Assembly (NCBI GenBank): GCA_030248295.1
Contig: JASANH010000938.1
Coordinates: 2,294,001-2,358,000 of the forward strand
From: Mesodorylaimus sp. YZB2_4
Taxonomy: Eukaryota; Nematoda; Enoplea; Dorylaimida; Dorylaimidae
DNA length: 64,000 nucleotides
Direction of reading: 5' to 3'
The translations under genes and the position numbers were made by a program. This document shows positions 8,345 to 52,003 of this stretch, one piece after another. The notes below the pieces were generated by a model. That model was not told the origin of the DNA and did no database searches. It was given only the letters and a program-made list of their open reading frames with translations. How positions within the stretch are numbered: the first letter of the stretch is position 1; every line of letters begins with the position of its first letter.

Positions 8345-9324
8345 CGTCGCCGAAAAGCCTAAAAAGAGTTAATGCTAACACAATGAAAGCATACACGACT
8401 CTTCAGTGGGCACTCGTCAACCAGCACGCTATTCCAGACAAGTGGGAATCGAATCGCCAAATGCATATCGCAAATTTCCCAGCAGTATCAAGGCAGAACC
8501 AGAACCATTTTCGCACAAGCCAGTTCCTCGAAGCTAGGTATAGGCCTTGTAACAAATGACAAGCCTAATCAGGGTCAATGGAAATATTGGGAGGGTGCTG
8601 TAATTGCAAGCCACCAGCCAACCGAAAGTTAGATCGATTTTCATCTAAAACACTTCAAGCCGCCACCCAAACAAACTGCACAGACTGTCGAAACCAAGGC
8701 CTTTATGAAGGGAGATGCCTAAGCGTGAGTAACAGCTCCACTAAAAACCGGCCTTTTCCGGTCTTCTCGCCCGCTAGACACCAAGGCGACATATTCGCGC
8801 TCTTTTGCAGACAGCAATTAAATGCCGTAAGAATATGCATAAATGTCTGCACTAAAGCGCGAAGAAGGTTATCGACCGATTTGTGTGCGCCAGACTTCCT
8901 GCTGCGTCATTTATAAGGCCGAAAGCTGGACTACAGCGAGTGACTAGACTAGAGTGAGTGAATATTAATCATCAAATTAGAATGCCAGATTCCTTTGCCT
9001 CAAAAAAGGAAGATCTTGGTTCGATAGCGGGATATGAAACTAGAAGGGATGTCTTTATGGGTTAGTTCCCGCTGGGTGGTCGGGCAACCCACGCTGCGTT
9101 TTCGATGAACAGTATATGTGTACCTACGTTGGCGCGATTGGTGCTAGGAGCAAACAATAAACCGGTGTTCTTAGATTTCTATGTACTATGCGTGCTTAAC
9201 CTGAGTTTTCTTGTACATTTTAGCTTCTCGACCTACGGCCTCGACGACCTCTTTCGATCGGATCACTTTTCCTATCATCTCGGCGATGTTGTTGTAAAGA
9301 CAGTTTGTTTCCGGTTTTGCCACC
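8345..9324. promoter_or_regulatory. Intergenic region between the divergent ABHD2 and spectraplakin starts
   Basis: The two start codons are 980 bases apart and point away from each other, so this stretch must hold both 5' untranslated regions and at least one promoter each, possibly shared. On the plus strand a strong acceptor-like site (TTGTACATTTTAG, AG at 9222-9223) lies about 100 bases before the spectraplakin ATG. It could end a 5'-UTR intron or be a trans-splice site. No clear TATA box was identified. Confidence 0.5.
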
Positions 9325-9502
9325 ATGGCTTCAGCATGGTCATTGAACAATTGGCAGCAAGAACAACGACTAAAACAAGAAAAGAAACCAAGCAATGGGG
9401 AAACAACTTCGTTGGATTCATCTTTAGACGAATGGATGCGAAATCAACCACTCAGTGTCTTGCAGTTGGATCCGGCTGATCGTATTGTACTGAAAATAGC
9501 AG
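9325..9502 (+). CDS. vab-10: Spectraplakin first coding exon (long N-terminus)
   Basis: ATG at 9325 opens 59 codons plus one base, ending at a strong donor (AG|GTAAGTGA). The exon ends with [12 protein letters not shown]. Joined to the exon at 14033 this gives ...[17 protein letters not shown], the conserved junction found in shot and MACF1 (LDPAxRxVxRxADERD). The 59 residues are hydrophilic and carry no recognised domain. A 4.5-kb intron follows, which contains further candidate first exons with the same exit phase. Confidence 0.9.
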
Positions 9503-12500
9503 GTAAGTGACTTTTTTACGAGCCTTTTTTGTGGGGTCGTAAAATTGCATAGGAACTGGCGGCAAGTTGGAATGGGTAAATCATAGGCTAATACTTTTGC
9601 AACAGCGTTTTCCGATGCGGCTCGGCTAAGATGATTCGACATTTGTTGTTATTCATTGGGCGTTGGAATCATGTCCATGATGCTCGTTTCGTACGGTGTT
9701 GGTTCTCTCAGTTTTGGCATTCCTCGTCCCTTGTGCTCTCGCTTCGTCATCCATCACTTCCTGTTCGCGAAGGATGCTGAAGAAGCCGCTAAGCAATATC
9801 TGCAAGCTCCATGGGTATCGATTGAAAAAACTAGTCAAGTCTGTGAGGGCGCCTCCTTAGAGGCATTATAAAGTGCTGCGTAGGAGAGAGGCGTTTTCGT
9901 TTGAGAACGTGATGGCTGGCACTTCGTTCGTTGTGTTCGGAACTGCCTTGCGTAACCTCGTCCGAGGCATCCAAGAAACGCAATGCGCAATGACGGCAAC
10001 TATGTAAAGTGAACGAACGACTCGACGCGTGTCTTCTCGGGTCGGTTTTGTTTTTCTTTTCTTCTTTTCTTCTTTTCTGACTGCATTTTATGCCTTATGT
10101 ATGACAAGTACACAAATAAAAGGGCGCCTCGAATTGAAAATCTGATGACGATGATGAATTAGTCTGTTACGACGGACCCATGTCGAGAGGCGCATCCACA
10201 ACGCACAGTCTTGCATAACACCGCGCCCTTGTAGACAGATCGATGACTGGTCTGATAACTGCAATGACCCTCGCTCACGAGTGACTAGTTTTTTGCTTCC
10301 TCGTCGTAATGCATCTTGACCAAGCGCCAACTCAATCGACGCAAATTCTAAAATTCAAGTTTTTTTCCGAATTCGGTGTACTACAGCTGCTGGTATTGGC
10401 AGTAGCACATTGCAGATTACAGAATCATATGCTTGCCAGATACAATGCAGTGGATCACAATGTGTCAAATAAGGGACCTACATGGCCTGTGATAAAAATA
10501 GAAATCTACTCATTACCTTGTAGGGATTGATGTACCGCGCATGGATTCAAGCTGGCATGATAAGAGAGTAATAGTGATTTGAGTTGGCATTTCACTGGGC
10601 TGGGCGTGTCCGGGAGAAGAATTTTATTTTCTGAGACATCTGTTTTGCTTTTGTCCATCATCCCCAACCACAAGAGTCTTGACCATCGATCGACGTTTGA
10701 TGTAAGAATACACGAATGATCAAACGGCGGCAGTGCGAAAGGAATAACTTAGTTCCATGCGGAAGTGATCAGGACGCATTAGCCAGCTAATGTCATTACG
10801 GAGATGCTTGAGGTTTGTCGATTAGTTTTGAGATAAGAAACATAGGCTCAGCACGTCGACCATATTTGGGTTTGACTGGTCAAAAGGTAGATGGACGTAC
10901 ATGGAGCATTGAACGAGTGACCCATGTAAATTGATCGAGCTTGCATCACAGTGCTCTTGTTTCTGCATGACTAATGGCTTACTCAGGTAGCATACTCGCT
11001 TGAAATGTTGCTCATGTGATTAATCGATTTGCATAGCCTGTATCCTTGGCGCCAAGTGTTGGCTCATTTGCATTCTTCAGCGTGGGCTAGTCGGTCTAGT
11101 ATGGCACTCGCCAGTGTTGTCTTTTGATGGCTTACATTGGTCGATTTATTCAGGTCGCTTTCAACGTATGTCCAGCCAAATTTGAACATAATATGCGCCC
11201 CAAGGCCGTGTCCTGACTGTGCACTTGTATCTTTGATAACGGGCATATTCATTGGCTTTAACCCGATGGCACGTCGTGCGAGTGATTATGCACTCGGGGA
11301 TCATAGCTCTCCGCGGCGTAGATCATCGAATCTGTTCAGCGATCAAGAGGAACTCGATCGATTTCATCAGCTGGGCCAGTATTATTGTAGGAGGAAGACG
11401 ACGGATGGCATCTTCTGCAAAGTTAGAAAATCAGGTCAAGAGGGTATAATTATGACGTTAGTGTTTTACTGATGGGCTGTCGAGGTGAAGTAACTGAGCT
11501 GGCGATGGCGTGAGTCTCTGTGAATGTTTGCTGGGCGTTAAGTAGAGCCATAAGTGAAGATAGCACTGGTAGCACATGGCGGGCGAGGGTGGGGGCGCAA
11601 GTGTCATTAGAAATCGAAAACCAGAGAGGCTGGTCCCCATCCTCGACCGTCGTAATGTGTTCAAACGGCAGCCGTTGAGTTTGCACAGCTGGTAGGGGAG
11701 GTAGGACTCATGAGGTTGGCAAGAAGTTGGAAGGGGCCGTCCCTATTCGTGTACGAGATCTTGATGTAACCGTGATGCTATTGTTAAAAGAAGCTTTGGT
11801 GGCGGGCTTGGCTGCAGTGCCGAGCTGGCGCGAATAAGCGTCCAAGTATTCCATTGTCTCTTGTCCGAAGGGATTTATGGAAACTAGAATTGTGATTATA
11901 ATAGTTTGTATTGGATTCGTGGAGTTGGTCGTTGGTGGCGGAAAATTGACGGTGCGCGTCCGTTTGCTTAAGCAATCTGCTGCCCGTGGATAGAAGCAGT
12001 GGGGTATGGACAGGGGCAGAATGTGTGCATAGGTGGTCCATTTTTCAGCGCCCTGCGTCGTCGCGGTCGTAGTTTGTAGTCGGCAGCGGGCCAGGCGGGC
12101 GTACAGTACGTATTGTACGGTCGGGGGTCTGTCGTTCATGATAATGACGATGTCGCGTCTGAGAGGCGAAGGGCGGTGCGGTTGGCCGGCCTCCTTGGCT
12201 CGGCCGATGGTTGGCACGTGTAGAATTTGTTATTCTTGGTTTTCTCATTAGGATTTTAGTGTGTAGTCGGGTTGGTGGAAGAGAGTGTCTGCCGTGGCTG
12301 AGAAAGTCGTCAAGTCGGGTCGCGGGGGTCGGCGAAAAGTGGAGCGGTCACCTTGCGCCAAAAACCAGCTCCATAGCCTCGGCGTCAAGTATAATCGGGA
12401 AGAAAAACAAACACAACAACGAAAACGGATGAACGCTAACGGTGGTGGTGGGGTATGGTCGTCTGAGTGCTGGGTGCTACTGGTGTTTTGGTGGACGTCT

Positions 12501-15500
12501 CGTCGTGACATCGTCATCACCCAATCTCGCTGGACGTTTTGATCGGCCGTCGTGCGCGGTCGTTTGTGCGCGCCTAGTATTTGGGAGATGGTCGACCATG
12601 CCGCGGGCTGGGTATAATGTATTACCTGGGCCAACAGAGACGATACGGAGGACTGCAGCGAAAGGCATGTCGCGTGTAACTATCATTTTTCATACCGAAA
12701 TCCGCTTAATTCTTGGCCGACGTGCCCGAGGAGGGGGTCGAGTGAGGTTACAAATGCCACCCGACTGCGCGACTCCTGAGTGTGGACCCGCGCCCTGTTG
12801 GCCGTGCATACCAGCAGCTGGCGGATAAGCTGGCCACGAACCGTGCCGAGACGCGTCGGCACGAATGAAGCTGGTCGTCGGATTGGAATAATTCATAAAA
12901 CTGGCCAGTTTGCCGACAAGACTTATGTTTGGGAGGGATGGGATTCTCCCCGAGGTCGCTCTAGTTTTTAGGCATGGGTGATAGATTTTTATTTTTATAC
13001 CTTAGTGACCGTTATAATTTTTGTTTGACGGCTGGATAAGTCGGCACCGGGGTACATGGTAAAAAATTGGGCCGGCGGTTGGGCTTACGGGTGCGTTCGT
13101 CGTGCTCACATTGGCTGGGCTCCTACGCGAGCATACTTGGCAGTTTAGGTACTGTTACGAAGCAGTTTGTATAAAGTTCGTCCTACCGGGCGCCTGCCTA
13201 CGACTCGTGTCGCGCTCGTCTAAAAAGTTGGCATTTTGGCTGTTATCTGTATTTGGATTAAGGTTTTTCGATAAAATGGCTGGACTGGGAACGGCTTGTT
13301 ACGTGTCTTCTGGTGGACTATAAGCGATGACTGGCGTATGGAATCGTTTATCATCGTTATTCTTCCATTGAATGCTGACGAATCTTAGTTTTTGTGGCGA
13401 CTGATTCGACAAGGGCGAAGAGACTTTTTCTTGAAGTTGGATTTATCTTGTTTGACTTTGATTTTGTTGTGAGCATGGATAACCGGGTGAAGATCGTGGT
13501 GAATGGAAACCATCATCATCAGACGACGTCGTTGTATTATCATTCAACGGATTACGCTTTACTCGATTCGCAGGATTCGAAAGGATTGGAAGAATATGAA
13601 CAGAATTTAGGCAAAAACAAAGGTTCGAGTGTTTGTTTCCTGTGGACATGTGTTGGAGGGAAGTGGGAATGTTGTGAATCAAGTCTGACAGTCATGCCTA
13701 TCTTTTGCGGGGAAACAATGTGTCAAGGACTGGTTTGCCTATGCGTCTCCCGCCTACCATCTGGTTTGTGCCGTCTAGGTTGCGTGTATGGCCTCTGACA
13801 TTAGCTGGCTTCAAAGTGGGGGGGGGTGAGTGTAGCGTGCACGTGACATTGGAATGGCTGGCTGCTTTGATATTGTAATCTGATATTGCAGATTTATCAA
13901 AGAGGTATCGCCCTCAGGAGATGTGCTGCATTGACATGTGCAGGGTTTGGTGAGACTGTAGGTCTGGCAAGGTTAGGAAGATATATAGGTAAACGATTGA
14001 TCAGTACAGAACTGTATTTTTTCTTTTTTTAGACGAACGAGATGCGATTCAAAAGAAGACGTTTACGAAATGGGTGAACAAACATTTGAAAAAGGTAAGT
14101 GCTAGCGAATTTTCTGCTGAAACCTTGAATTTTTTCCTCTCACGATTGCGTGTGGTCCGAGTGTGGCACGATTTGCGGGACTTAGTTGATAGAATAGAAT
14201 AAGGTCTTGTTATATTTTGGGGATGCAGCATTTACCACAGGCGTGTCATTTGGCTAGAGCTTCTGTTCTGTTGGCGGGCTCATGATGAATGGCGAAATGG
14301 CATCCCAGTAGTTCTAACCCTGGAGTGGTTGACGCTATGTTCATGGAGAGTGGTCTGCTGGGATGTTTTGACTAGTTTACTGTAAATACAAGTACGCGCC
14401 CTTTTTGTCTTGGATCTAGAAGAGTTTTTGGTCAGGAGGTTATTTTTGATGGGTACTTATTCCAAGATTCGGTCGTTTATCCTTTCCTGTGTCTCGTGCA
14501 CGAGGCGGTAGAGAGTATAGGGAAAAACTAAATTCCTGAGTATCGAATATTTGAGGGAGGTCGCGTGTTTTTATGAATGTTTTGGGGTCGTTCAGGTTTT
14601 ATGGCCAATTCAGAGGTTGGTTTCACGGGTGACGTAGCCGATCCACAATCATGGGCTGTGGTGTCGGTCGGCTTTTGAAAAGGCAAAGTTTATGGAAAAT
14701 TGTCTAGCAAATGACCGCACCTACTTGTTTAAATGATGTTTGAAAATTTGTGAACTTTGTTTTATTTTGTTTCAATGCAGCATTGGCGATACGCGCAGGT
14801 AATGTGACTGGTATTTACTGGTTTGAGGGGCAAAGAAGGTTGCATAAGAGGACAGGTACTAACATAGCAGATGTCACTGATCGTGCACCAGGTGGGAATG
14901 TCTATTTATCATTGGTAAACACCAAATCCAAAGCTTCTGATGCCTTATCTTCTGTTTGACGTGTTTACCAAGTATATACATTGGTGGTAAATCATGTATT
15001 GCTGTCAGAAGCAAACCAAATCATCTTTGATGTTCTTAAAAATATAGAAGCGGATTTGGGCCTACGAAGAGGATTGAGCGTGGAATGTGGGGCTAATATC
15101 ACAGCTGAGTCAAAGGTAATAGTGGTATTTGATGACACTGCTGCGTGATGGACTGCGTTGTAGTCATGTGTGGGCGAGGTGCTAATTTATGCAAATTTTC
15201 GGATTTTTTAATTTCAAGTTTTTGACGAAGAAACTGCTCCTAGATGATAAGCTGAAACAAAAAAAACGTTGAGGGAAATTGCTAGCGATAGTTAATTCGG
15301 TTTCTTCTATTCTTCAGCTTTAGGCAGCATCTGAAACTGGGGGGTCGCCTATGTGGCCTGCTCATTTTGGGAAATATTGGCCAATTTTTGAGCGGACCCT
15401 TCCCCTAGACTCATTGTCGGGCTAATCCTAAGTCTAGACCCCCCCCACCCCCCTGGTAGGAATCGAGCTGACGTGAGTCCAATCCAAGACCCCAGTCACG

Positions 15501-18500
15501 AAGCGAGTCTAGTCCAGGACACTCGCAGAAATGGAACTCTATCCTTCCTGAGACCGACCTTCAGTGCCAGACAGCCAGACTAGCTTGTGCCTTTGCTAGA
15601 AACCGCTATCACATGCGTGAGGCCTCTGTCTAATGTATATCGCTGCCTCGAAACCGTATGCAATTGCATGCAGTACGATCGCAAGGCTAAGCGGGGTTCA
15701 TTCAAGTTTGGAAAATCTGGAAGTCAGGGAGTCTGAAAAGTGTGTGGAAAAAGCCAGGAAACCAGGGAAAATTAGGAGTTTTTAGCCAAAATCGGAGAAA
15801 AACTGAAAAGTTGCATTTTGGGTTTAAAATTGTGAAAATTATTAGGGAAAATTTTAATTTTGCCTGGAAAATCAGGGAAAGCCGTTTTCCGCGCCTTATA
15901 TGAACCCTGTTGCGGAAAAAGTTTATGATAAAATGGATACCAAAAACTTGGTTTCATCTTCCTGGGCCGTCCTCCCCTTCCAAAAAATTGCAGACCACGT
16001 GGCCAGGGGCTAAGTTTCGGATGCTGCTTAGGAGTAGGGGTAAACATGATCACACTTTGGGTGAAGAAGGGGCTCCTGCTTTACCCTTCGTATTATGCCC
16101 AACCATGGAGTATCGGGATGCTTTTAGACGTGGGCAACTGGGTGATGGTCAGAGGACCTTGAGGGTACTGTACAATGGGGACTGCTTTCCGACGGACGGA
16201 CTGGAGAAAGGCAGACAAAGGCACTGTTGGACTGGGAGTAAACACCATCGACTGTGTTGCAGATGCCACGATGTAATTGACTTTCTTGAGCGACTGCACT
16301 GTAATGACTAGAGCAGGCAGATGTGCATAGATCAAGCTACTGCCAGGTGCATACAAAGGGGGTGATTCAACAGCAAAGCAGTAAATCAATTGAAGACTTT
16401 GTGTTTTTGGCAGACATATTTGAGGACATATCGTTGCTGCGCCTGCTATAGTTGCACAATGAATGGGTCGCCGAGTGTAAGTGAATGGGTGTTAGCAGTG
16501 AGTGGTGCCTGCTGACTATGCTCGATGTATTTTAAGTTCAGTTTTTGTGCCTGTACCAGAGTAGCGAGGTTTATGGCCGTGTGCATGAATGCAGTTATGA
16601 AATATGCTTCGGGCAGTTGGGGCACCTTTTTTGAGTCGCGCAGACATTGTATTTGGTTTTGTCACGTCCCATTTCTCCACTTCCTTGCGCTTTATGCAGT
16701 GAGTTTTGAATGGTGGGTTTTGTAAATTGTTTCTCTTTTTCAGGCTGGAAAGAATGTAGAGGATTTATTCATACATCTACAAGACGGTCATAATCTGATT
16801 TCCTTATTGGAAGTACTCAGTGGGGAAAGTTTGGTAAGAATGTTTACACTTTTTATGAAGTTGGTTTTGTGAGTTTTGTATTTCGTCTAATTTTAGAAGC
16901 GTGAAAAGGGTCGCATGCGAATACACCGACTGCAGAATGTACAAACTTGTCTGGACTTCCTCGACAGTAAAAACGTAAGTACTCAAATGACGAGTGGATC
17001 GAGGGCCCGTTTGCGTTTCTTGAGTGCGTCAAGTGCGCAACGGCTTCCTCGGCCGGGTTTGCCGAGCTTATAGAACGGATTCTGGAAGCTGTGTGTGAAC
17101 ACTAAGGAGTACATATTTCACAAATATTTGCTAAAAATATTCGTGCTGATAATGTTCGCACCTTGTGATCCGAAAGAATAGATTAGGAGTTGGACTGCGT
17201 TTTGACAGGTGTGGTGTGACTGACATGAGAAGAGCTGAGGTCAGATTCGAGTTAGAGGGACTGTGTGATAGCTGGAGCTTGTGGAGGGATCGTGCTTGTG
17301 AGATGACTGGTGATGGGGAAGGTAGTGGGGGAGGGTTGTGATGGGAGTGGGAACAAAGTAGGAATAAGAGCACTCAGATTTGTACTCTTGTTTCAGGTGA
17401 AGCTAGTCAATATCCAAGCCTCGGACATTGTGGATGGAAACCCGAAATTGACGTTGGGTTTGATCTGGAGTATTATCCTACACTTCCAGGTGAGAATGTG
17501 GGATTCGTCGAGAGTAGTCGATCGTTTGTTGAGTTTTGTAGTTTTAGTTGCATTTTTTGGCTGTTGTGGGGGAATAGTATCGTTTGTGGGTGTTGTGAGG
17601 AGGGGAAGGGAATACGAGCACATTTGATGGTTTTTGCATTCGATTTACGTTCGACTCGAATCGGCTTAGTTTTCGTTTGGCGCGAATGTTGGCTAGGTGA
17701 GCTTAGGGGAAAATTACAAATGAAACTGTCCTCGGTCGAGTGCTTGAGATAATTTCGGCCACTTTTAGAAGGCTTTTTATTCTGAATCTTTTTTTGACCG
17801 TGATGTGGGGGTGGGGGGACGAATTTTGCTCGTCATTGTTTGATGGCTTGTTCGCTTAGGCGCTTGTGAATGTCGTGGTGTTTCGTTTGTAGAAGAGAAG
17901 GCCTAGTAGAATGTGGGGTGGGTGGGCGGGGAGCTACAGTACATGAGCGTTTCGATATAAAGCTGTCCAATGAAAAATGGTCGGTTATGTTTCTGTTGAA
18001 ACACAATTTTGGGGGACTAGGAGCGAGGTAGGCGTGTTTATTCAGGCATTCAACATATTCATCATAGCGTTGGCACTTTCTGCATCAGATCACCTTTTCC
18101 ACCTGAAAATGATGGCAAAACTGTCAAATTTTCAGAACGGCATTCCGTGAATAGTTTTCACGGGCTGTCCGTATTGTTCTATCGAGTGCGTAGCCTGGGG
18201 CGAGAAAACGAGGTGACTAAGAGGACTGGTGCATTGGTTAGGAGACGAGGTACTTATTTGATTTGTTTCGGCAGATTAGGTTTTTCGCAAATGGAATGCA
18301 TAAAACGTAGAAAACAGATTATCTTGTAAAATTACTGTTGCGACTCGGTTTGTGTAATTTGTGTGACTTGTAGAATGGACTGTGGCGGCGGGTGGGGGGG
18401 GGGGGGAGTAAATTGCGTAGAGGCTGTACTAGAAAGTACCTGAGTTTTAAATGGCAAAAAGAATGCAGTAAACGCTCGAATCTCTGGGCCTAGTGCTGGG

Positions 18501-21500
18501 TCTTTGCTTAGAGATAACTGCGTCATTGTCGTTATCATCAGTTTGCTTTGGCGGGAAGTTGGAATGTGGTGCAGGGAGCGTTGGATAGGCAGAGGCATGA
18601 TACGCGTACGCACGATGTTTATACTGCGATGGTGTGAGAAGGAAGCACTCTCATATTTTACTCAGTGTCTAGACAGAAAGATCTGTCAATAGCAATTCTT
18701 TTGGTTTGTGTAATGCATAAAACTATTCACGCGAAAGATTGCAAAAGAAAAAGTGAAACATGGAGCGCAGCTGTTTCGCGGGGCGAGCGATTTGGTTTCA
18801 TCGATTCGAGGTTGGCCAGCTTTGTTTAAGGGCATGCGATCAATGTGCATGCCGTAGGGCTTGAACCGAATTGCGCCTCTGGCACGAATCGATCGAACGG
18901 GGGTTGGTTTAGTCGAAGTTGAATGCTCGCAAAATAATGTTGGCTGTTCTAAGCTAATGCGCACTGGTACATCACATGCTGGTGTTAGAAGTGGCAATGT
19001 TTCCCACCCATGGCCTACTCGTTGTGCGTGTGCTGGGCAGTAGTTTTTTCTCGCTAATGATAACCGTGGAGACGTCTTCTAGGAATCAATGTTTTGAGCC
19101 TGGCTTCTCTGTCGTGCACAGTTTGGGTTCGGTCTGATGCAGGGCGCTCGGTGCTTCCGGCGCCGGCGGGACGTTGTTAGCCAGCAAACGTGTCTTCAGC
19201 TGATGACGTTTCGTTGGTGTAAGCGGGCGATGGTGAATGGTGTAAGCTGAGTGAGCAATACAAGCTTGTGAGCTTTGAAGGGGAAAGAGCGTTTATGCTT
19301 CGTCATCTGATCGTTTGGAGAGCTTACGTGTTTTTGGTTTCCGGGTCGCACTATACGTTGAAGCAGGTTGGACGAGGAGGAGGCATATTATTTATTATGA
19401 GTCCAGCCGGGGCGAGGCCCGGCCAGTGTGGCATTTTAATAGGAACTGGTTTATCAGCGTCGTGTTGGAGAATAGTTGTAGTAGCTGGCAACCTGGTGAC
19501 AGCCATCCTAGTGGTCGGTATTTTCGCGTCGACGGCAGCAGCGACCTTCGACGGAGTCGAGGCGGTGTCGGTGCGTAATATTGAGAGTAGAGGCGACGAC
19601 GGCGACGCTGGCAGATTAGGAGACGAAAGGGATAGACGTGAAGAGGAGGTGGAGGAGTGTGGTGCAAGTGAAGATGAAAAATGCACCATTCGGCAGCCTC
19701 GCGCGCCATTAGACTGTACGAGTAGTCGACATAGGACAGAACCAGTATCGACGGCGGCGTCGTCTCTTGTGCCAGAGCGTTTTGAAGAGAACAACGACGA
19801 CGACTATTACTATTACAGAAGGACGCACAACTGTCCAACCGCCAGTGTTTTGGAACACGTCGTCAGAGGAGGCGGTTGCTCGTTGTTTTCGTGCGATTGG
19901 TACACACCACGTTTTGTTGCCTTTTTATTGGCGGCTTGGTTATTGATCGCGGCGGCGATCGTGCTAACGGCTCGGATCATGTACAAGATTTTGAAGAGCT
20001 ACAGCAAAAAGGCCGAGCGGAAGCACGAGGTGACTCGGGGAGCTACTTCGTCGTCGGTGGCCTCCACAGAAGTGTCAGTGAATGGCAGTGGCAGGCAACA
20101 GCAGCAGCAGCAATTGGAGGTGGTCAGGGCAGAACGGTATGGCAATGGGAACGGAGCCATCGTGCCTGCTCACGGCGATGATGGCCTGGCATTGACCTAC
20201 ATCCAAGGCGGTGTCGGAGGCGCCTATTCGGAAAGCTCATCGTTCGAGTCGCGTGAGCACTACGAGCGAAGGCTGCAGAGAGTGAAGCGATCTAGGAGTG
20301 ATCGCGATCGTGCCGCGGCCAGTCGACGATCAACCGAGCGTACTATCGAGAAGCGCCCAATCAAAGTAAATCCTAGGATTGGGCCTGTTCCATTGTGGAC
20401 AATGATGCGATGCGGACTGGGAATCGGGGTCTCGTGCTTCCGAATCTGCAGGCCAAGCTGCTCGGGAGGGCATATCAGAATCTGTTTACACAATACTAGG
20501 TCAATAACCAGGTTCAAGTGGGCTAAACGCAGTGTGTGCGTGATCGGCCTAAAGTAGCGCACTTCGCACGAGTGTAGGTAAAGCATTGTGCAGTGACCCT
20601 GGACTGGACTAGAATGTGGACGTGGCATATAAGTCTAGTAACAGCCTGTCCTGTTAGTTTTTTTGGTTTTTTGTTGGCGCAACCCAGAAAGACCTGGTTT
20701 TTTAAAGTCGGCAAAGTTCTTTAAGGCTGCGCACTTTGCAGAATGAGACCAAATTCTCGCTAATGACACGTGTAATTGGTGTGACAAGGATTGTGGGCGG
20801 CCGTGCTGTTCTTGACGACCATTTAGAGAAACCAGCCGTTGAGGGGACGGTTGATTCGGGGTTGTACATTTTGGAATAAATTTGTAGGAAAAGAGAGTTT
20901 TTACAAGTGCCGAGGAAGGGGCTTAGGGTGATTGCAATAGTGCCTAGTCGAAAAACCCGGATAGTGTGCATAAGGGTGCCGGATTGGACACGTTTTCTGC
21001 TCTAGTTTGTACATTGGTATCGGGAGGCAGCCTTTGTTATCACCCGTGCCATGATGAATTCGTTTACGTGCCCGGACACTTTGGATACAACTTCATTCAA
21101 CAACATCTCGAGTGCCTACAATAGGTTAACCGCGGCCGACCGATTTGAAGAAAGGAGAAACTGGCGTGTGGTGACTACCTAATCTTGCAATTTTCGAGCG
21201 TCTAACCCCCTTGGACGGATGCAAAAATCCTTCACCCGGTTCTGGAGAGTAGTCATAGTGAAGTTATGTGCCCCCCTTGAAGAACGCATGGTCTAGGACT
21301 CGTCGCAGTCCAACCCAACGTCCTTTGCTGTACAGTTCAGGTTTACTATGTAGGACAAGATTTTTACCGGTCTAGTGCGTTAGCCGTAAAAATGCTCGTG
21401 TGTGATACATAGGTTGTCTAGGCGAGAAGGGAAATCTTGGTAATATAAGTGTAGGCAAAGGGGACGCTTTTAGGAGGCGTGCGTAATTGTAAAAGATGGC

Positions 21501-24500
21501 ATTGGTTGATAGGAAAGTTGATGGGACGGGGTTTATTTTGACGAATCTTTCTGCGTACGGGGCCCGCATTGTGGACGACTGACTCAGCGCCTTTTAGCAA
21601 AACTGGATATTTGTTGAAGCGTGACTGGCCCGTTATGACCTTAAGTAGAAAGTTTTTTGGTAGTTGTGAGAATAGGAAATGTTTGTGGGACACCATGATC
21701 AAAGTGGTGGAAGAGTCGTCGTGAATTCCAAGGACGTGAAGACGATGATGACAGGGGGCGTCGACCCCTCGCTGCACACCAGCCAACTTATTCGCCGTTC
21801 GCATCTATGTTGTCTCGATGTGTGGCCTTTGCGAGAAACATCTCAATTGCTTTGAGAGCCAAAAAATGCGCGCAATGACAATCTTGCAGAAAATAGGATA
21901 TAAATGAGGGGAGGGGAGTGCACGTAAGCAATGGAATTAGGGAGGTGGGCTAAAAGTTTTGGTGAGGGGAGGTGTTTTATGTTGATTTCCTAAAAGTGAC
22001 TGTGTGGGGTGTCAGCGCGTGTCTAACCTGATCTTACAATTTGCAGGTATCGGAGATCACTCGCGAAGAAGAGAGCGGTCTGACAGCCAAGGATGCGTTG
22101 ATGCAATGGGCTCGACGGGTTACGGAAGGCTATCCCGGTGTGAACGTGCGCGACTTGACTGGCTCGTGGCGGGATGGTTTGGCATTCAATGCCATTCTGC
22201 ACAAATATCGGTATGCAAGTATGATTTACGAGGGTGGACGAGATAATCAGTTTTGCTTTCAGGCCGGACTTGATCAATTGGCGCGAGGTGCGAAGTCGAA
22301 TGAACACTCGCCAGAGATTGGATCATGCCTTTGGATTGGCGGAACGCGAGTTTGGCGTCACCAGGTTGCTGGATCCGGAAGGTATGGACAGATTGGAATG
22401 CGTGCGTGGTCAGACATGGCCCCGTTTCAGATGTGGAGGTGCAAGCTCCGGACGAGAGATCGATGATGACATACATATCGACCTTGTACGATGCTTTGCC
22501 CGATCGTCCAGCGGCCGAAAAGGTAAGATTAGTTCATTTGGCCTGGGACAGCGAAGGTTGAAAAGGAATGGGTTTGTAGTACGATCGCGATATAAACGAA
22601 TATCGATTGGCGGCTCGTGAATTTCTTCAATGGGTTCTTCGGACCACTCGTACGATGCAAGATCGTTCACTTCCGTTTCACGCTACGGAGCTCAAGGTAT
22701 AATTCGTAGCTCCCAGGCTAGTTTTATGACATTCAGGAATATGATGGTCGTTTTCAGCAATTGCTCAACGAAATAGAGCGGTTCAAAGCCAGCGAGCTTC
22801 AGCCGCGCCTTCGCGAGAAACAACATTTGGAACAAATTTATTTGGAATTGGAGGTGGGTAATATTTGTGTTGTGGTGGGGATTGAATTTTGATGAGAATT
22901 TTTCGCAGAATCTATTCGGAGATACGGCCTTTATGCGTGCCATCGAGGATGACCTAACGGCCATCAGCTTAGATCGAGCTTGGAATCAATTACTGGCTGC
23001 GATTAGTGAACGGGAACAACTGATTTTGGAAAGGCATGGACTGCAGGGAACTGCGCAAGACATATCTCGTCGTTTACTTCAAGATATCAACGTGACGAAT
23101 GAGAAGTTAGATGTGATTCTAACCCGTATTGAGGAAACGGAGTCGCGTTCGCGCGTCACTTCGCCCCGTCAATTGAAAGATACCTTCGATAGCATAATAT
23201 ATGATTTGAATTTATTGGAAGCACCGATCGATGGATTTTTTCGAGACGTAGAAACTTTGAAATCGACTCGTCATCCGCAAGCGAACGAATTTTATAAACA
23301 GTAAGAGTGGAATGAGAAGGGTTGTTTGGGATTGATAAAGTATGTCATTGCAGAATATTTGGCCTCCATCAACGTCGTATTGCCTACTTGGAACGATGCG
23401 GTGTCATTGTTGGCGCCGATGGCAAAGTCGTGTCGATAAGAAGCGATTTTTACATGAGCGAAGAATATTTCCACAGTCGAGAGACTTTGTTTAAGACGGC
23501 CGAAGAATCGATCGAATGGGTGGATAGGAAATTGGTAAGTGTCGAGTGACTGGGTTAGTGACGGGGAAGAAATCAATGTTGGGTTTTTCAGAAATTATTA
23601 TCTGAAATGCCTTTTGTGGAAGATTTGAAAGTGTTGGAAGATAATATGGAGAAGCACAAATTAGAGCACCGTGATATCATGGATTTCCGTGTCAAAGTGG
23701 ACCAATGCATCGCGCATCAGGCTAAGATATCGGCTGAAGATTCGGGCCCGTATTGCGACCTGCTGCATACTTTGGAAGAAGCGTATGCCCAGTTGAGGGT
23801 AAGTGAAAATGGACTCGGCTCGAATTTTGCAAGAGATTATGCCGTGGCAATGGTTGTAGGAATTGTCGACTGGCCGTGTTTTGGACCTGGACTCGTTGAT
23901 CGCATTCATTCGGGCCGCCCAAATCGAATTGTATTGGATCAGCGAGCGGGAAGATTTGGAAGTGTCGAGGAATTGGTCGGACGTCAGCCAATTGGATTTG
24001 CCCATGTTGCAAAACTATTATAAGCAGCTGATGCACGAAATTGAACTACGCGAAGAGCAGTTCAATGCTGTGCATAATCAAGGGGCGGCTTTGATCAATC
24101 AAGGACATCCAGCTGTTTACGTGATTGAGGTATGAGGTGCGTATGGCTGGTTTAAAATGTGCTTGAATATATGCCCGTTGTAGGCGTACTTGACGACTAT
24201 GCAAGCCCAGTGGGACTGGTTATTGTCGCTGACACAGTGTTTGGAAGTTCACTTGCAGGATGCGCTGAATATGCAACAGGTGGGTGTTGTTTAGTGTGTT
24301 AGGGGTAGGCATTGGTGATAGTGTGCTCGTTTCAGTTCGTGGAGGACGCACAGAACTGCGAGCAATGGATGGAGAAGCAAATGCAGTTGATCAGCACTCA
24401 CTACGATCGTGGTGATTTCTCATTGGATGAAGGCGAGCGTCTATTAAGGGAGCTGGAGGAAATTCGAGAAATGCTGGATCGTTACCACGATATTCTGTTG

Positions 24501-27500: not shown

Positions 27501-30500
27501 CGTTCCGTCGCCTAAGCGTTGGTCTAAGCTAGCCTTGGTCGTAATTCCTTTAGGGTCGGCACCTTTCACGCGGGGCACCTATGCTCACCAAATTGGCACC
27601 ACCTGTTTTAACGCTAAAACCCTTCATAAAATCTTCACACTTTGCTGGACCCAAAACAATGACTGTGTGACAGTTTCAAAAGAATTTCTCAATTTTCCAA
27701 ATTTGGCTTCAATGCCAAATCGGCCTGGGAGTATTGCTAGCTTATAGACGACGCTGCGGCCATGGAAACGTAAGGTATATGATCCACAATCGTAACTGGA
27801 CTCGGCTGAACCAAAGGAAGGACCGCGGATAGGAGGTGCTTGACCCCCTTACTCAATTGCAGGAGGAGGAAGAACGTATTCGCATCGAAGAGAGACGACG
27901 CAGAGCCGAGGAGGAACGGCGTTTGAATGAAGAGCGTCAGCGTTTGCTTTTGGAGAAAGAGCAACGCGAACGTGAAGAGGAAGAACGGAGGCGTAGAAAA
28001 GCATTGGAGGATCTGGAGAGGGAGCGGCAACGCGAAGAGAGGGAGCGTGAAATGCAGCGACTTCGCGAACTGGAAGAGGAGCGCGAACGTCTTGCGCGAG
28101 AGGAAGCGGAAAGACGTCGGCGTGAACGTGAGCGGGCCACCGAGGAGGAAAGGAAACGACGCGAAGAGGAAGAGCGTCGTAAGCGAGAACGCGAAGAAGC
28201 CGAGCGGCGTCGGCGTGAGGAAGAAGATAGACGACTGCGTGAACGCGAAGAAGCCGAACGTCGGCGACGCGAAGAGGAAGAGCGCAGACGTTTGGAAGAA
28301 GAAAAACGACGACAGGAGGAAGAGGAACGTCGGAGGCGCGAGGAGGAGGAAAGGAGGCGTCTGGAAGAAGAGCGTCGTAAGTTGGAAGAAGAAGCGCGAC
28401 GTCGACGCGAGCGAGAGGAAGAAGAGAGGCGCAGGCGTGAGAAAGAGGAGGAACGAAGGCAACGAGAACGCGAGCGTTGGGAGCGCGAGCAGCGAGAACG
28501 CATCGAAAGAACCACTGTGGATATCCCCATAGTCAAGGAAACGCATGTCACGCACAAATACATCCCTCCGTCACCAGTGGAAAAGAAGACTGTCACAGTC
28601 GTGATTCCTGAAACGAAGAGACCAGATGTGCATCACGAATGGCATATCCGCCACGAGGAGCACATGGGAGAAGGCATACCCGGCGATACTGCCTTGCCGT
28701 TCGATGAACCCAAACCGATACCAGTCGACGTAAAAATGCGTGAACACGAGGACGAAACTGATGTGATTATGTATGCGGAAGAAACAGAACAGCGAACGAA
28801 ATTCTACGAATTGGAGGCCATCAAACACATGCAAACTGGGGAAATCCTGACCTTCGTGGAAGCCGTACGTCAAGGCTTGTTGGACTTGAGATCTGGCGAA
28901 TTCTTCGATATCATATCCGGGTCCAGAATCTCTTTGCAGGATGCAGTAGAGCGCGGTTACATCTCGCAGTCTTTCAATGACTGTTTGCAAACTCGTTATG
29001 GCATTCGCGATCCAGCTACTGGCGAAGAGTTGACTTTGTTTGAGGCCATACAAAGAGGACTTTACGACCCAGAGTGCCGCCAGCTTCGCGACCCAGCGTC
29101 GGGGGAATTGATGGCGTTGTACGAGGCGTCGAGGTTAGGCGTCATTTCCATGGACAATGTACACCGCTTGATCAAAATGGGTATCTTAAAATTGCCGCCT
29201 TTGCACTTGGAACAAGCTATCGAACAGAAAGTAGTGGACTTGGAAAGCGGACAGTTTATAGGCCGTTTCTCGCGTGAGACGCTGCCTCTGAGAGAAGCTC
29301 TACATAACGGCTATATCACCATATCGTCCCCGTTGACCCCCATGATCGCCGTGACGTTGACGGAGTGCATCGAACAGCGCTTTGTCGATCCGAGTAGTGG
29401 TGACTTCGTGGATAAGAACAGCAGCGAGAAGTTCACTTTGCGCGATGCCGTCTCCAAGCAGAACAATCTGATCAACTTGAACGTGCGCGAGGTGGTGAAT
29501 ACGGGCGAGAGGAAGAGGATTACTGTAGGCGACGCAATTCTTAGGAACATAATCAACACTCGGCAGGGCAACTTCACGGACACGACTCAAAGGCAGACGT
29601 TGAGTTTGTTGCATGCGCACGAACAAGGATATATTCAGAAGCCTATTACGTTGAAGACAGTGGCTGAGAGAGATCTTATCGATTCCTTGGGACACTTCAT
29701 TGATGGGGGCACGAAAAAGAGGATGACACTTTTGGAGGCTGTGGCCGAAGGGTTGCTCGATCCTGATGTGCCACACATTGTTGATCCCAATGAGAAGGAT
29801 ACTATTTCTATCTCGGACGCCTTGGAACGGGGAATCCTGACCCCCCGTGGCTTCTTCGCTTCGCCTGAGACCAACGAGGAGTACACTGTGCACGAGGCGC
29901 ACAAACGTGGTATTCTGGTGGAGCCAGTAAAGTTCACCGTGTTCGATGTGAAGGGGGTTCGAAACACGAAGACCAATCAAATGCTCAGTTTCAACGAAGC
30001 CGTCGAAGTGGGAGCCATTCAGCTGACTGCGGAGCGTTTCGTGGACCTGGCTTCGAACGAGAGTTACTTGCTGCCTGATACGGTCGAGAAGGGCAGATTA
30101 CTCGATCCCATGTTGCACATGATACTGAGCGCCATGGCCGGGATCAGGGACAAACATGGAAATGATATGAACGTGTTCAAGGCCATCGCAACAGGCGTCA
30201 TTGACACGAAAAAAGGGGCCTTCGTGGAGAAACAGAGTAGCACGCATTTGCAGCCGAAAGAGGCTTATGAAAGGGGGCTGATTAGTTTGAAAGGCGCCAT
30301 GCAGCTGACTGCACTTTTCAATGTCCATCCGTCATTGATTGTTGTGAGCAAGATTCCAAAGGTGCGTCGGAAACGTATTCACGCTCGGGTCGGAGAGGAG
30401 CGAGTTCTGGCGGAAGGAGAAGTCAGGATGACATTGGCTGATGCTATGCGTCAAGGTCTGATAGACGCGAGGGCTCAACGTTTCAAGGCTGGAGATCGTG

Positions 30501-33500
30501 AAATCACCTTGCAAGACGCATTGAATCAAGGTTTGGTGGATAGCTCAGCGGAATGGATCGTGCCAGCTTTGGGCACGACTGGTGGTCCCACCGTTCAAGA
30601 ATCGGTCTCTGAACAGATGACTGAAACTAGCCAAGTCTTGGCGCCGAAAGTGCAACCCAGCGGGCGAACGGAGGAGACTGTGACCACTGTCAAACGAATA
30701 CGCACCAAGGAGACAGTGGCGGCTGGCGGTCCCGGAGGAGTGGCTGTCTATCGCGCCATCACCAGTGGTCGGGGCTCGTTGGAAGTGCCAGTGGACGGGT
30801 TGCATGTGTTCACGGCTGAGCGGGACAATTTATTCGATATGAATACCGGCATCTTGAGTGTGCCAGACTCGGATCGCAACTTGACCTTGGAAGAAGCACT
30901 GGAATTGGGTATCTTGAATTCGAAGCAGTTCACTGTCCACGATAAAAAGACCCACGAGAATCTGTCCGTCAGTGAGGCTATAGAAAGGGGAATCATGGAT
31001 TCGACTGGTCATGTTCGTGATCATAAAACTGGCAGGACATTGAGCTTGCAGGCGGCCATCGACGCCGAGTATGTAACCATTGCGCCAGAACAACCAGCTC
31101 GCGCTGCACCAGCCACGAAAGTTATCCAATTTGGAGCTGGTCAAAACGTGGGGCCTGTGATGAGCATAACCCCCATCGGCACATCAGTTATGGAAGAAAG
31201 CGAGGCTTCATTTTCGTTAGACTTGAAGAGTGGAGAAATCGTGGACGGATTCAGTGGTCATAGAATGTCACTGGATGAGGCTGTGCGCACTGGCAAAGTT
31301 GGTCGGGATATCTTGAGAGTGAAGGACGCCTTGACGGATCGAGAACTGTCCTACGTGGATGCTACGAAGTGGGGTATCATTGATAAGGACGCGGATCGGT
31401 ACAGTAATAAGCGTGATGCAACCACGCATAGTCTGAAGGAAGCGGCATCGCGCGGACTGATTTTCTTGACTGGTGGTGTTCCAGAATATTCGAGGGAAGC
31501 AGTCAGAACAGATGTCCGCCAACAGACCAGGAAAATCGTTACTACGAAGGAAGCCGCCATCGCTGGGCCTGCCGCCTTTGTGGACTACAGTTTGCAAAAA
31601 GTGATTGAGTTGGGATGGTATGATCCAAAGAATGGGCATTTTACACACCCAGACACGAAGAAGCAAATGAGTTTGAAGGACGCCGTCATGAAAGGCTTGT
31701 TTAACCCATACGAATCGGTGGTCGTAAACTCGAAAAGTGGGGAGCAGATTTCCTTTTTGGATGCCGTCCAGTCGGGTGTCATTGATGCCAGCACTGGGAC
31801 TATCCTCGACGAGGGCACCAATGAGCGCATGGACTTGAAATCGGCTTGTGAACGTGGGCTGATTCGATCTGGCGTTTTGGCTCAAACTTTGGAGACGGCC
31901 ATATCGAGCGGTCGCGTGGATTTGAGTACGGGCGAAGTGAAATCGCCCGACAGCAGTGGGTCGATGCAGCTACATGAAGCTATTGCCCGTGGCATAATCG
32001 AACCGAACAGCATGGTTGTCAAAGATCCAAGTACTGGCGAGGAGATATCATTCCAGGACGCTGTGAGAGCCAAAATTGTTGACTTGTCGCATGGGTTGGT
32101 CATCAATAAGAGAACTGGAGATGGAGTTAGTTTGACCCAAGCGGTCATGTCTGGCACTATTCAACCCGTTCCAAGGCCAGGCGGAGCAAGGGCGCCCTTA
32201 GCCGTGGCTCCAGCTTCGTACTCTCCCCGTGCAGCACCGAGGGGTGGAGTGAGTCCGGGAAGCCGTGAGCGATTGGTCGATTTGGGTGTTGATAAGCAGG
32301 CCATGGTGAAAGTGATCAAGGACGAGCATGGTGTCGAAAAGGGCGAGTACGTTGACTCCGCTACGGGGATGAAGTTTACTGTGCGTCTGCATGGTGATCC
32401 ATACGCAACACAAATGAAGACCACTGTCAAGTCGACTGCCCAAGTCCAGTCGATCGAGCTGGAGCCGCATGCTGAGCTGATTGGCATTGATAAGGTGCGC
32501 GATAACAGGACGGGACGCGAGATTTCATTGGCTGATGCGCAACGGCTGGGACTGGCCAGGGTCAACAAGCATGGCAAGCAGTTGACGAAAACGTACGCCG
32601 TTTTCCGATCCGATCTATTGAACGCGTTGAAACGGGGTGTAATCGATCCTGGAAAAAATGAAAACGTGTCATTGCCTGATGCAATCAAGTCCCGCCTGAT
32701 CGATATCCAAGATTTGGTTTACGTCCATCCGCAAAGCAATGAGCGCATCGATTTTGTGCAGGCCGCGAACATGGGACTGCTGGATGTGACTTTGGCCGAA
32801 GTGCTGCCTAAAGGAGTGTGCAATCCGGCGAATGGCGAGAGAATCTCGATTCAGAGAGCCATCGATTTGAGAATAGTCGATCCAAAATCTGGAAACGTCT
32901 CGAATCCATTCAAGAATGAACAGTTGACTTGGCTGGACATCTTGAAACCAGTTTATGCCAGCATGACTATGGAGGGCATCTATGATCCCAGAAAGGGCTA
33001 CTCTGTTCCGATCCCGAGTGCTATTAATGAGGGACTGATCGACGTCAAGGCCAGGGAGTACCATAATCCAATCACGAATGAGAAGTACAGTTTGGAGGAG
33101 GCGTCGAAGATCGGCCTGATCGACGAGGGTACCTACAAGGCCATCACCACTCCCAATGTCCATGATTGGCGATCTGGAAAACACGTCTCGCTTTTGGAAG
33201 CTGTGCAGAGCGGCCTAGTGGATGCTCAGCATCGTACCGTACAATTGGCCAAAGGTGTAGTGGTGCCTTTGAGCAAGGCGATCGAGGAAGGCAAGTTCCC
33301 GCAGGACGTTGGACAGCGAATGAGGCGCGTCGACAAACTGACGTTCGCTGAGGCTCTTGGACGAGGTCTGATTGATGTTAGGTCGAATCAGTATCAAGAT
33401 CCGGATACTGTTCGTCGTATGACTGTGGCGCAGGCTCTGCAGGAAGGCTATATCGATACTGGAAGCGTGGAATCGCAAGAAGGCGCTGATGAGAGGAATC

Positions 33501-36500
33501 TATGCAATGTGATTGATTCATACGAATTCGATGAGAACTCTGGCCGCATTCGCGAACAGAAGACGGGACTTTACTTGACCTTCCGCGAGGCCATCGATCG
33601 GGCGGTGATCGATGGCGATTCTTTGATTTGCGATGTCGACACAGGTCGTACTATGACTTTGCGAAGTGCTGTCAACATCGGCCTGATCAATTCCGATGGC
33701 AAGTATGTTGACAAAAAGACGGCAGCTAAACTAAACTTGAAAGATGCGGTGCGGGTGGGTTTGCTGGCCTTGATTTCGAGTCCTATGTTGGCCAGTCAGG
33801 CCTTCGCGGAAGCCATAAAAAGACGTGAAAAGGAAGGATTCAAATTCAAGATCGAAAGACCAGGTAGCCCCAAACTGGGCTCGCCAGGTGGAAGCCGTTC
33901 GGCTGTGGAAGAAATAACCACGTTTAGGATGACTCCGCACTACGAGCCGACTCTGTCCTTGAAAGTCCGCACCGAAGATGTGTCCGATCGGTTGCGGTCT
34001 TTGATCAATGATCCTCAAGCCTATGCAGATCGTCAGCACGATTTCCTCCATCGTTTGCGGGACAAGAATATCGATGTGGATGAGAAGGTGATCGAAAATC
34101 CGGCCAGTGGTAATCGTATCTCGATTCGTGATGCAGTGGAGAGTGGCATTCTGGATGTGGTCAGTGGCGAAGTTGTTCATCCCTCGACTGGACGCCGGTA
34201 TTCAGTCCCCAAGGCGGTTCACATGAAGTACATTCAACCGAGCGCGGCCAAGAGTGTCATGGAAGCGTTGAATCTAAACTTAGAAGAACTCTACGTGTCC
34301 ATGCAAGGCGTCAGTCCACGTTCGGACTTCAGCCCCATTTCGTTCGGTTCACCCGCTAGTGGCGCCTCTTCCGGTCCGACCACAAACGTTTACACAAAGG
34401 AAGTGGCCTGGCGAGGAGATGCTTCTGAACTGCGAGGGTCCAGAGGCGATTTGAGTCAGTACACGACTGTGCGCGGATCGAGGGGCGTGGCAGAAGAGGG
34501 TGGAAGTAGCGCAGTTTATGAGGAGCGCGTTGTGAGGACGACTGAAGAAAGGGATGATGAAGCGCCAGTGGTGACACGGCGGGTAGAAGAAACCATACGG
34601 CGCACAGGTGGGCCACTGAACGCCGAGGAGGAGTCCTCAGTTACTGACCAGGAAACCGAATCGCATTTGATCAAAGAAACTACAGAACCGGTAAATACGG
34701 AGAGTGAAGGGTCGGCTGAGGAAAGCTACTACTTGCGTAGTTCTTCCATTAGGTAACAATTTTGGAGCTAGCCTTGAATTCACCTTGTAAAACTAAATCG
34801 GGTTCTTTTTCGTTTTCCACAGGCTGTAGTGCAGACGACGGCTGTCAGACTGTAGTGTGTATGTGGTGTATGTGTATGCACAGTACGTGGATAACTTAGA
34901 TTAGGTTAGTGCTCACTTAGGGACGTCACTTATGTCAGTATTTTGAGTTGCTATCCGGTTAGAGTACAAGAAGGCGAGCGAATTCCGGCCTTCGACTGGT
35001 GCGAATTATTGCGACTGCTAATTGGATGTTTAGGGGCATGGTGTTCTGTCAATGTCTTGTCCCTGTCTCGTGAGTTTTCGTTCTTTTTTGTGCGTTTTTT
35101 CCGTTTTTGCCGATGCGCTTTTGTGGCAAAACGCACGAGTGAGTGGTCTGTAATTTGTTTTTTTTTGCCGATTTTTATTCTTTTCTCGTTTTATCATGAG
35201 CCAGTTTTTATGTTTTCGTGAGTGAGAATCAAGTATAGGCCCGATTCATTAATGGTTCTACATTTGGTTGCTCTGGTATTGCGACTCTCGTCCTCAGCAC
35301 TGCCCTGTTTTGCGTCGACTTCTCTCTATGTGACTGAAAAATGACTGATTGGATGGCCCATTTCGTTCGTGGACTTTGTTTGGTTGGCTTTCTCAGCGCT
35401 CGTCGTGGGAGCATGGTTTATTTTGATACTGTTTTATACTTCCAAGGTAAAGCATGTTTTTGAAAATTGGGATAGAAAAGCAAAGTAGCATTTTCAGTTT
35501 TGCATGAAGTCAAAAATCTGCAATGCATGAGTGGTTGGTGTCTTTTGCCGCAAGCTTATGTTTTCGTTCTGTTTTTGTCCTCGTCCTTTTTTACATTTTA
35601 TTTTGTATGCACTAAACAACTTGTTTCCAATAATCACTTTGGACTGGTTGAACCACTCGAATTATTGTGTTGGCTTGCCTATGTTCTCCGCCGCCGTCTG
35701 CTTAGCTTTTGGAACATCTCTCACAAATGGGCAAAGAGTAACAGTCTAAATCTATTCATGCAAAAATATTCGCGCTTTCCCGATTTATCTGACTTATATT
35801 ATCTAATATGTCTAATTTTGGTTTGCTGGGGCAGGGAGCGGGAGCGGGTTGCAAGCTTTCTTGGCTTGCATTGCTTTGGGAGAGGAGAGAATGCGATATG
35901 GAAGTGCGCAGCCCCTGATCACATTTTCAATTCGTTAATAGTAGATTTCTTGCACAGGACAACCGCGCAGTTTAGGCATGTCCTTTTTTCTGATAGAATG
36001 GTGAATTATGTATTATTCTATGAATTTAGGACGAAATCGGAGAAAAGTACGCCGCGTGCGGAGATTCGATCGATGGCTTGCTCAGCAAACTGCGTGGAAG
36101 TCGAGAAGATTTGGTGCTTCGATTGTTGGGCTCGGGTGATGTGGTCGATGGACCCTCAGCGGCCTCCAGTGATTTCAAAAGTGGTCTTAAATTAGTTCAA
36201 GTGAGTGAACTTAGTTCCGGTTATACTTTAGGATGGGTCCTAGCCGGCTTAGGGGAGGGGGTGCTGATCTTTCTGAGCAGCGACCCTTCATAATTTTAGG
36301 AAAAAGAACTGGTGCATCGAAAATTGGAAGAAGAAGTAAAACAATCTTTGAAAACGGCTGAGCAATTGTCGAGTGCCGAGGGTGCTGCCGTGTTGTCACC
36401 AGAAGAATATCATAATTTGCGAAGACGAAGCGATGAATTGAAACGGGAATACAACGATGATTCGGTGCGATTGGAGAAAATTATGAACAGGTATGATGGT

Positions 36501-50913: not shown

Positions 50914-52003
50914 TCATCCTAAGCACCCAACCAAGGATCCGCATGGCTCTCCAAAGGATACAAATGAGCCAAGGATCGTGAGACTACACACATTGCCCGC
51001 AGACAGCATGACCCGAGAGGACCTGATTCCTCCATCAGAGTCAGCTATCAACTCAGTAACGCGAGCCATTCTCCACGATCCACGAGGACCATCGTCATAC
51101 ACCAGCAACACAACTCCAACCGCAGGCACGATAGAAGACCTCGAATGAGGCTGTTTCAGCTGACGCTGAGAACGTTCGCGCAAGCTCAGGAGATGCTGAT
51201 CGCGTAATTCCCTCCAGAACTCCTCCAAATTCCGCTGGCCCTTTTTCCAATGATCCAAGAGCTTAGCGGTCGAAGATATACCCCGCGCGAAATCAGGATC
51301 CGCCCTTTCTTGTGGATCCCAAGAATGTGTACCCATAGCAATGTTCCAGGACAATAAATGCGCCGGAGTTAAGGCTTGGCCATTCTGAATGTCCGCCCCC
51401 CCCCCCATATAAGTGAGCGGACGCGAATTGATCACCGCTTCGATCTCAATGACTACAGTTTGCAACTGATCGTGAGTTAAGCTGAAGCACAAGGTGCCGA
51501 AAGTTTCTCTCATACACCGCTTCACTAAACGTGCGAGTCGCTCGTAGAACCCGCCGCGCCGGTGCCCGTTCAGTGACAAAGTGCCACTTTATGCCCTGAC
51601 CCCCAATATATGATTGGACAGAACGATCCCGCAGGACATCACCCCACAAATCCTTCACCGCAGCCTGAACTAGCCGAAATTGAGCGGCGTTATCAGACCA
51701 TATGGCAACGGGCTTGCCTCGGCGAGCGATGAACCTCTCCAGCGACAAAAGAGATTCTTCTGTCGACATATTGACGACAACCTCCAAATGAATCGCTCGA
51801 GTCGCCAAGCAAGTAAACAAGCAAACCCAGACCTTGCCTAAGTTCCGCACTGTCAGTGGACCCAGGTAGTCAAGACCAGTGAATGTGAACGCCGGAGAGG
51901 CAGTAATCCTGCACTTCGGATACGCGGGCATGGAGGGCACCTTATAGGGGCTGCCATCCACACGCCTACACCTGCCACACGATCGAACGTATTTTAAAGA
52001 CAT
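50914..52003 (-). pseudogene. BEL/Pao integrase fragment, frameshifted
   Basis: Two overlapping minus-strand frames (52003-51446 and 51579-50914) together cover an integrase. There is a Cys-containing zinc-like segment (SCGRCRR), the catalytic-core start (FTGLDYLGPL, ATRAIHLEVV, SDNAAQF), and after a frame change GGFYERLARLVKRC, INSRPLTY, LTPAHLL and a C-terminal part with a GDVVLVYDD-like segment (VVLLVYDDGPRGSWRM). The core residues are recognisable, but the frame is broken near 51550. Confidence 0.82.

Follow-up and report, generated by a model that had tools for sequence, protein, structure and literature searches.

A predicted alternative first coding exon with two hydrophobic segments in the CH1-CH2 intron of a nematode spectraplakin gene

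A spectraplakin gene and its diverged duplicate

The window analyzed here is the whole stretch of 64,000 nucleotides from Mesodorylaimus sp. YZB2_4, and searches of the same genome covered 145 Mb on 1067 contigs. This genome yielded 133 matches to the N-terminal family of nematode cuticle collagens, as against matches in 0 of 14 control genomes, and its 18S gene looks dorylaimian. In the window, Pfam detected tandem CH domains at the N terminus of a plus-strand gene, followed in successive open frames of that strand by plectin repeats (PF00681) and, downstream of these, spectrin repeats (PF00435) (Table 1). This frame was assigned to the gene encoding CH1 and CH2 because of its strand, its order, and its conservation with the duplicate described below. 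Compared with solved structures, the CH2 exon matched beta-spectrins best, then MICAL-3 and plectin, and MACF1 was matched as well (E = 7.2e-11). Pfam named no plakin domain in the pieces that follow CH2: all three pieces of a first set were without a family, and two further pieces yielded one weak spectrin repeat below the cut-off and one absence of any match. These pieces are conserved in the duplicate. We take the gene to be a spectraplakin of the vab-10 type of nematodes. The coding stretch ahead of CH1 is probably the ordinary N-terminal stretch of the CH1-containing isoform, and its end resembles the stretch that directly precedes CH1 in dystonin.

A second, diverged spectraplakin gene is located in the same genome on the minus strand of C188:100001-160000. 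This gene is colinear with the window gene from the N-terminal stretch through CH1 to the plectin-repeat frame. Aligned exon pieces of the two genes share about 66 to 79% DNA identity, and a haplotype or assembly copy was rejected on this ground. The CH2 exon matched nine places in the genome (E ≤ 1), the second best being C188:139867-140016 on the minus strand (72% identity). The 3′ end of the CH2 exon was set by a GT common to both genes.

Base composition is strand-asymmetric along the gene, with a GC skew of 0.16 to 0.31 in every 2-kb block of window positions 12001 to 26000. Genome-wide, no match to the C. elegans SL1 leader was detected with up to two mismatches. Elsewhere in the window, the minus strand carries remains of a Pao/BEL-type retroelement (positions 50917 to 53501; Peptidase_A17, E = 5.9e-16, with DUF5641 and an integrase core below the cut-off) and an open frame of about 610 codons without a Pfam match, which runs off the window (positions 1 to 1830).

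Table 1. Features of the window gene and of the candidate exon in its CH1-CH2 intron
Feature	Position	Strand	Remarks
N-terminal coding stretch, candidate	9322..9507	+	Kept in duplicate; coordinates are those of the stretch, not exon ends
CH1 start	14032..14097	+	Comparison with duplicate; exon ends approximate
Last CH1 exon	17397..17489	+	Ends CAG/GTGAGA, phase 0; Pfam CH match
Alternative first coding exon, predicted	19295..20365	+	357 codons, ATG at 19295
Hydrophobic segment 1, residues 58-84	19466..19546	+	Hydropathy, charges; A-x-A motif at end
Loop/ectodomain, residues 85-206	19547..19912	+	Net charge -11, six Cys, 122 residues
Hydrophobic segment 2, residues 207-227	19913..19975	+	Predicted membrane helix; hydropathy
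Conserved tail, residues 228-357	19976..20365	+	Basic, Cys-free, predicted cytosolic; homologous to C188:141744-142013 (minus strand)
Splice donor, predicted	20366..20371	+	GTAAAT, phase 0; duplicate counterpart AAA/GTATGA
First CH2 exon	22047..22210	+	Acceptor TTTGCAG, phase 0; Pfam CH match
Plectin-repeat open frame	27833..34753	+	2307 codons; duplicate conservation from 28715

An open frame between CH1 and CH2 and its conserved tail

A first-pass annotation had proposed a large alternative first exon within the CH1-CH2 intron. As described there, the 1071 bases from 19295 to 20365 translate to 357 amino acids without a stop, lie on the strand of the gene between 17489 and 22047, and end in the phase that CH2 needs (AAA/GTAAAT, the slash marking the exon end); the ends of the last CH1 exon and of the candidate exon and the start of CH2 are all in phase 0. 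Further in-frame methionines occur at residues 35 and 229. From stop to stop, the frame spans 444 codons (19223 to 20557, the stop being at 20555 to 20557). When the entire CH1-CH2 intron was simulated 1000 times with a Markov model, no frame of this length arose, the longest being 313 codons. The only Pfam match of the exon, DUF4834 (E = 0.39, below its cut-off), and four PDB matches to an archaeal transducer (E = 0.12 to 0.55) were dismissed as chance.

Searched against its own genome (E ≤ 0.001), the exon was found in two places: itself and the minus strand of C188:141762-141905 (E = 6.9e-8), about 1.7 kb upstream of the CH2 match of the duplicate. The CH1-CH2 intron of the duplicate contains a homologous tail, running from IMYKILK to KKALK and then into a phase 0 GT. 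A conserved exon at this intron position, which had been suggested as something to look for in related genomes, was present in the duplicate of the same genome, as the tail only. Gapped tblastn with the filter off matched residues 197 to 339 (E = 2.65e-9), with similarity only after residue 227. In the tail alignment, 90 of the window tail's 130 codons were aligned and 48 of these 90 residues were identical, giving a score of 184, whereas 1000 shuffles reached 59 at most. The numbers of differences at first, second, and third codon positions were 28, 31, and 53, with pN at 0.318 and pS, which is saturated, at 0.749. This substitution pattern indicates that the tail is under strong purifying selection between the copies, and its codon preference is high (z = 5.85, 0 of 1000).

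When plus-strand open frames of at least 15 codons from window positions 1 to 50000 were compared with the C188 locus (tblastn, E ≤ 1e-3, low-complexity filter on), the sole match between CH1 and CH2 was at 19976 to 20035, in order and on strand. The sole blastn match within this intron was at 20228 to 20304. Since a conserved tail stands beside CH2 in both copies, a coding exon at this position predates the duplication and was kept under selection in both genes.

A predicted membrane head and competing readings of the exon

The two hydrophobic segments noted previously were borne out as strong Kyte-Doolittle peaks (2.61 and 2.69 over 19 residues); a third, marginal stretch at residues 45 to 65 reached 1.66 (threshold, 1.6). 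Shuffling the exon protein 2000 times produced at least two hydrophobic segments in 17 cases and at least one in 413. Hydrophobicity alone is uninformative at this locus, given that the neighboring intron (17496 to 19220) holds four 19-residue stretches of at least 1.8; positions 20600 to 22046 hold none. Of the long acidic region and polyQ described previously, the former is present as the loop between the segments (net charge of -11 over 122 residues), whereas the latter amounts to six Q only. Charges are distributed as +5 before segment 1 (without an acidic residue), -11 in the loop, and +10 in the tail, and cysteines as two before segment 1, six in the loop, and none in the tail. No N-glycosylation motif was found in the loop (residues 85 to 206). 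This layout of charges and cysteines would place CH2 in the cytosol, whether or not segment 1 is cleaved. Segment 1 is a candidate signal peptide or signal anchor, and might be cleaved. AlphaFold (two sequences) returned helices at residues 55 to 95, 205 to 251, and 320 to 351 with low confidence (mean pLDDT = 47.6).

Overall, we consider it moderately probable that 19295 to 20365 is an alternative first coding exon that joins a membrane head to CH2 without CH1. The junction to CH2 proposed in the first-pass annotation gained support from the duplicate, whose CH1-CH2 intron holds the homologous tail with a donor of the same phase, and from strong purifying selection. Regarding the proposal of a membrane-anchored isoform without CH1, the exon does lie after CH1, and anchoring is plausible but weaker because conservation is confined to the part after segment 2 and no membrane segment stands in frame just upstream of the tail in the duplicate. 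The upstream 227 codons rest on the open frame and on a topology with CH2 in the cytosol. Under this reading, a promoter inside the CH1-CH2 intron would drive a transcript spliced from 20365 to 22047, and the isoform would consist of the 357 residues followed directly by CH2. Acting as a signal peptide or signal anchor, segment 1 would enter the membrane; the acidic loop and its six cysteines would lie outside the cell or in the ER lumen, and segment 2 would cross back, leaving the Cys-free basic tail and the CH2-plakin-spectrin rod in the cytosol. The likely consequence is that a membrane, in place of F-actin, would become the direct anchor of the rod and, via the rod, of microtubules or intermediate filaments. 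A Cys-containing ectodomain would suit the cell surface too, besides perinuclear membranes as for dystonin-a2.

A bolder version, possible but doubtful in our estimation, is that the spectraplakin acts as a cell-surface receptor, with a cleaved signal peptide, a disulfide-bonded acidic ectodomain, and a single span fused to CH2; after duplication, one copy would have kept or gained the head, and the other would use the shared tail exon for a soluble form. If this were so, one polypeptide would reach from the extracellular side to microtubules or intermediate filaments without F-actin.

The foremost competing reading, which we regard as rather unlikely, is a soluble CH2-only isoform that starts at Met229 (position 19979, MYKILK...) with a cytosolic head of 129 residues, the upstream sequence being a leader or a copy-specific addition. 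Homology with the duplicate begins sharply at I228-M229, as this reading expects, and 21 codons before that Ile the duplicate has an in-frame stop, with no membrane segment in frame. Residues 1 to 227 had no detectable counterpart in the duplicate either at the protein level (best of three frames, 29; 95th percentile of shuffles, 40) or at the nucleotide level, where 674 of 1000 shuffles did equally well. What looked like a frameshifted remnant of segment 2 in another frame of the duplicate (IASFLLFTAIVAV) was not supported, being equaled in 674 of 1000 shuffles locally and 886 of 2000 globally. Codon preference is clearly coding-like in the tail only: for residues 1 to 227 the z score of 1.73 was within the range of intron windows (-1.13 to 2.70; 12 partly overlapping windows), with values of 2.18 for the loop, -0.54 for segment 1, and -0.22 for segment 2. 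Among 2000 dinucleotide shuffles, 323 equaled or surpassed the log-odds score of residues 1 to 227 (-0.024), although none of 489 overlapping windows of intron did so; on the minus strand, two frames over this stretch scored higher (0.05 and 0.066). Against a start at Met229, the 251 codons that precede the conserved tail are free of stops, which happened in none of 5000 dinucleotide shuffles of this stretch and in none of 20000 simulated introns; with all six frames allowed, 1 of 2000 shuffles had an open one. In addition, the two hydrophobic segments fit together with the distribution of charges and cysteines in a consistent membrane topology.

Evidence from the 3′ end of the exon bears on an independent membrane-protein gene nested in the intron. 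Such a gene would end with the stop at 20555 to 20557 in the window and with the stop that follows the GT by one codon in the duplicate. The donor at 20366 is weak: against a matrix built from 24 donors of both genes, representing 12 of the 15 exon ends examined (two of the other three lacked a shared GT and one was ambiguous), it scored 0.76, within the span of the matrix donors (0.52 to 5.67) but with only 1 of 24 scoring as low or lower. Of the 368 GTs in the CH1-CH2 intron, 22 scored at least as high, 20366 itself included. It outscored the other four phase 0 GTs that lie after the homologous stretch and before the stop, all of them below -2.8; the duplicate donor, the sole phase 0 GT after homology there, scored 2.77. 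In the tail, recognizable similarity extends to residue 339 and stops 18 codons short of the donor in the window and about 8 short of it in the duplicate, so that the common donor is deduced from frame and place rather than from aligned flanks. This early end of similarity would fit a nested gene, as would the stop directly after the GT of the duplicate and the continuation of the frame for 63 codons past the donor, where codon preference reaches z = 1.91. However, the log-odds score of these 63 codons (-0.216) is close to the intron median (-0.194), and both copies have, close to where homology stops, a phase 0 GT whose donor score is positive. Two nested proteins would moreover share the inner stretch only, that of the duplicate having about 91 residues and no membrane segment, and other spectraplakins are known to use alternative starts by which CH1 is lost and CH2 retained. 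A separate gene is therefore improbable in our judgment, and the alternative first exon is favored by the in-phase donor and by the tail being the only protein-level match found between CH1 and CH2. Least credible of all is a nonfunctional relic or chance open frame, for which the absence of a coding signal in the upstream part would speak, but which sits poorly with the tail being under purifying selection in two deeply diverged copies.

Comparison with known spectraplakin isoforms

Spectraplakins mostly reach membranes via partner proteins. The head of dystonin-a2 comprises about 200 residues, and the initial description of the mammalian added segment as much shorter than the present one does not seem to hold.

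The predicted membrane-headed, CH1-less isoform would resemble dystonin-a2/b2 (BPAG1 isoform 2), which has its own N-terminal region with a membrane segment; in the available portion of PMC3352338, dystonin-a2 is a spectraplakin with a transmembrane domain at perinuclear membranes. It would differ in that the variation of BPAG1 isoform 2 precedes the ABD (PMC4171495, in part), whereas here the exon follows CH1 and CH1 would be skipped. Set side by side by description, the dystonin-a2 head has a transmembrane domain and the present one has two hydrophobic segments flanking a 122-residue loop. Membrane-anchored isoforms had been attributed to both dystonin and MACF1; dystonin-a2 bears this out, whereas in the passages available, MACF1a3 has half an ABD instead (PMC5979291) and BPAG1 isoform 3 an altered ABD (PMC4171495). 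These two are alike in their half or altered ABD, and isoform 3 is described with a putative myristoylation motif, not a transmembrane segment (PMC3352338, where the three dystonin-a isoforms are also said to have an ABD sequence in common). CH2 alone binds actin weakly (PMC5979291, in part).

The Drosophila isoforms Shot-PC/PH, from the C* start site, use an alternative start that drops CH1 and are reported to lose F-actin interaction, and Shot-PC does not yield the F-actin-dependent neuronal phenotypes of Shot-PE (PMC9320987; see also PMC11058685, on Shot CH1 and F-actin, both in part). The excerpt of PMC9320987 mentions no Shot membrane segment. For VAB-10A/B, the nematode spectraplakin of C. 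elegans, the excerpt of PMC5887144 mentions neither a CH1-less nor a membrane-spanning isoform, and it describes epidermal attachment structures that contain a separate transmembrane protein, LET-805/myotactin. Among the titles and abstract openings listed from the open-licence literature, no spectraplakin isoform with a membrane segment directly on CH2 was found. With a membrane head where CH1 would otherwise stand, an isoform would give up actin binding and gain membrane tethering, and a membrane-spanning, CH1-less spectraplakin would separate the two functions in one natural protein. The two gene copies in one animal would allow a membrane-headed form of this isoform to be set against one that appears soluble. 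Together, the sources as excerpted place CH1-less isoforms (Shot-PC, MACF1a3, and BPAG1 isoform 3) and a transmembrane isoform (dystonin-a2) on record separately; what would be new in the predicted isoform is their combination, along with the large non-cytosolic loop.
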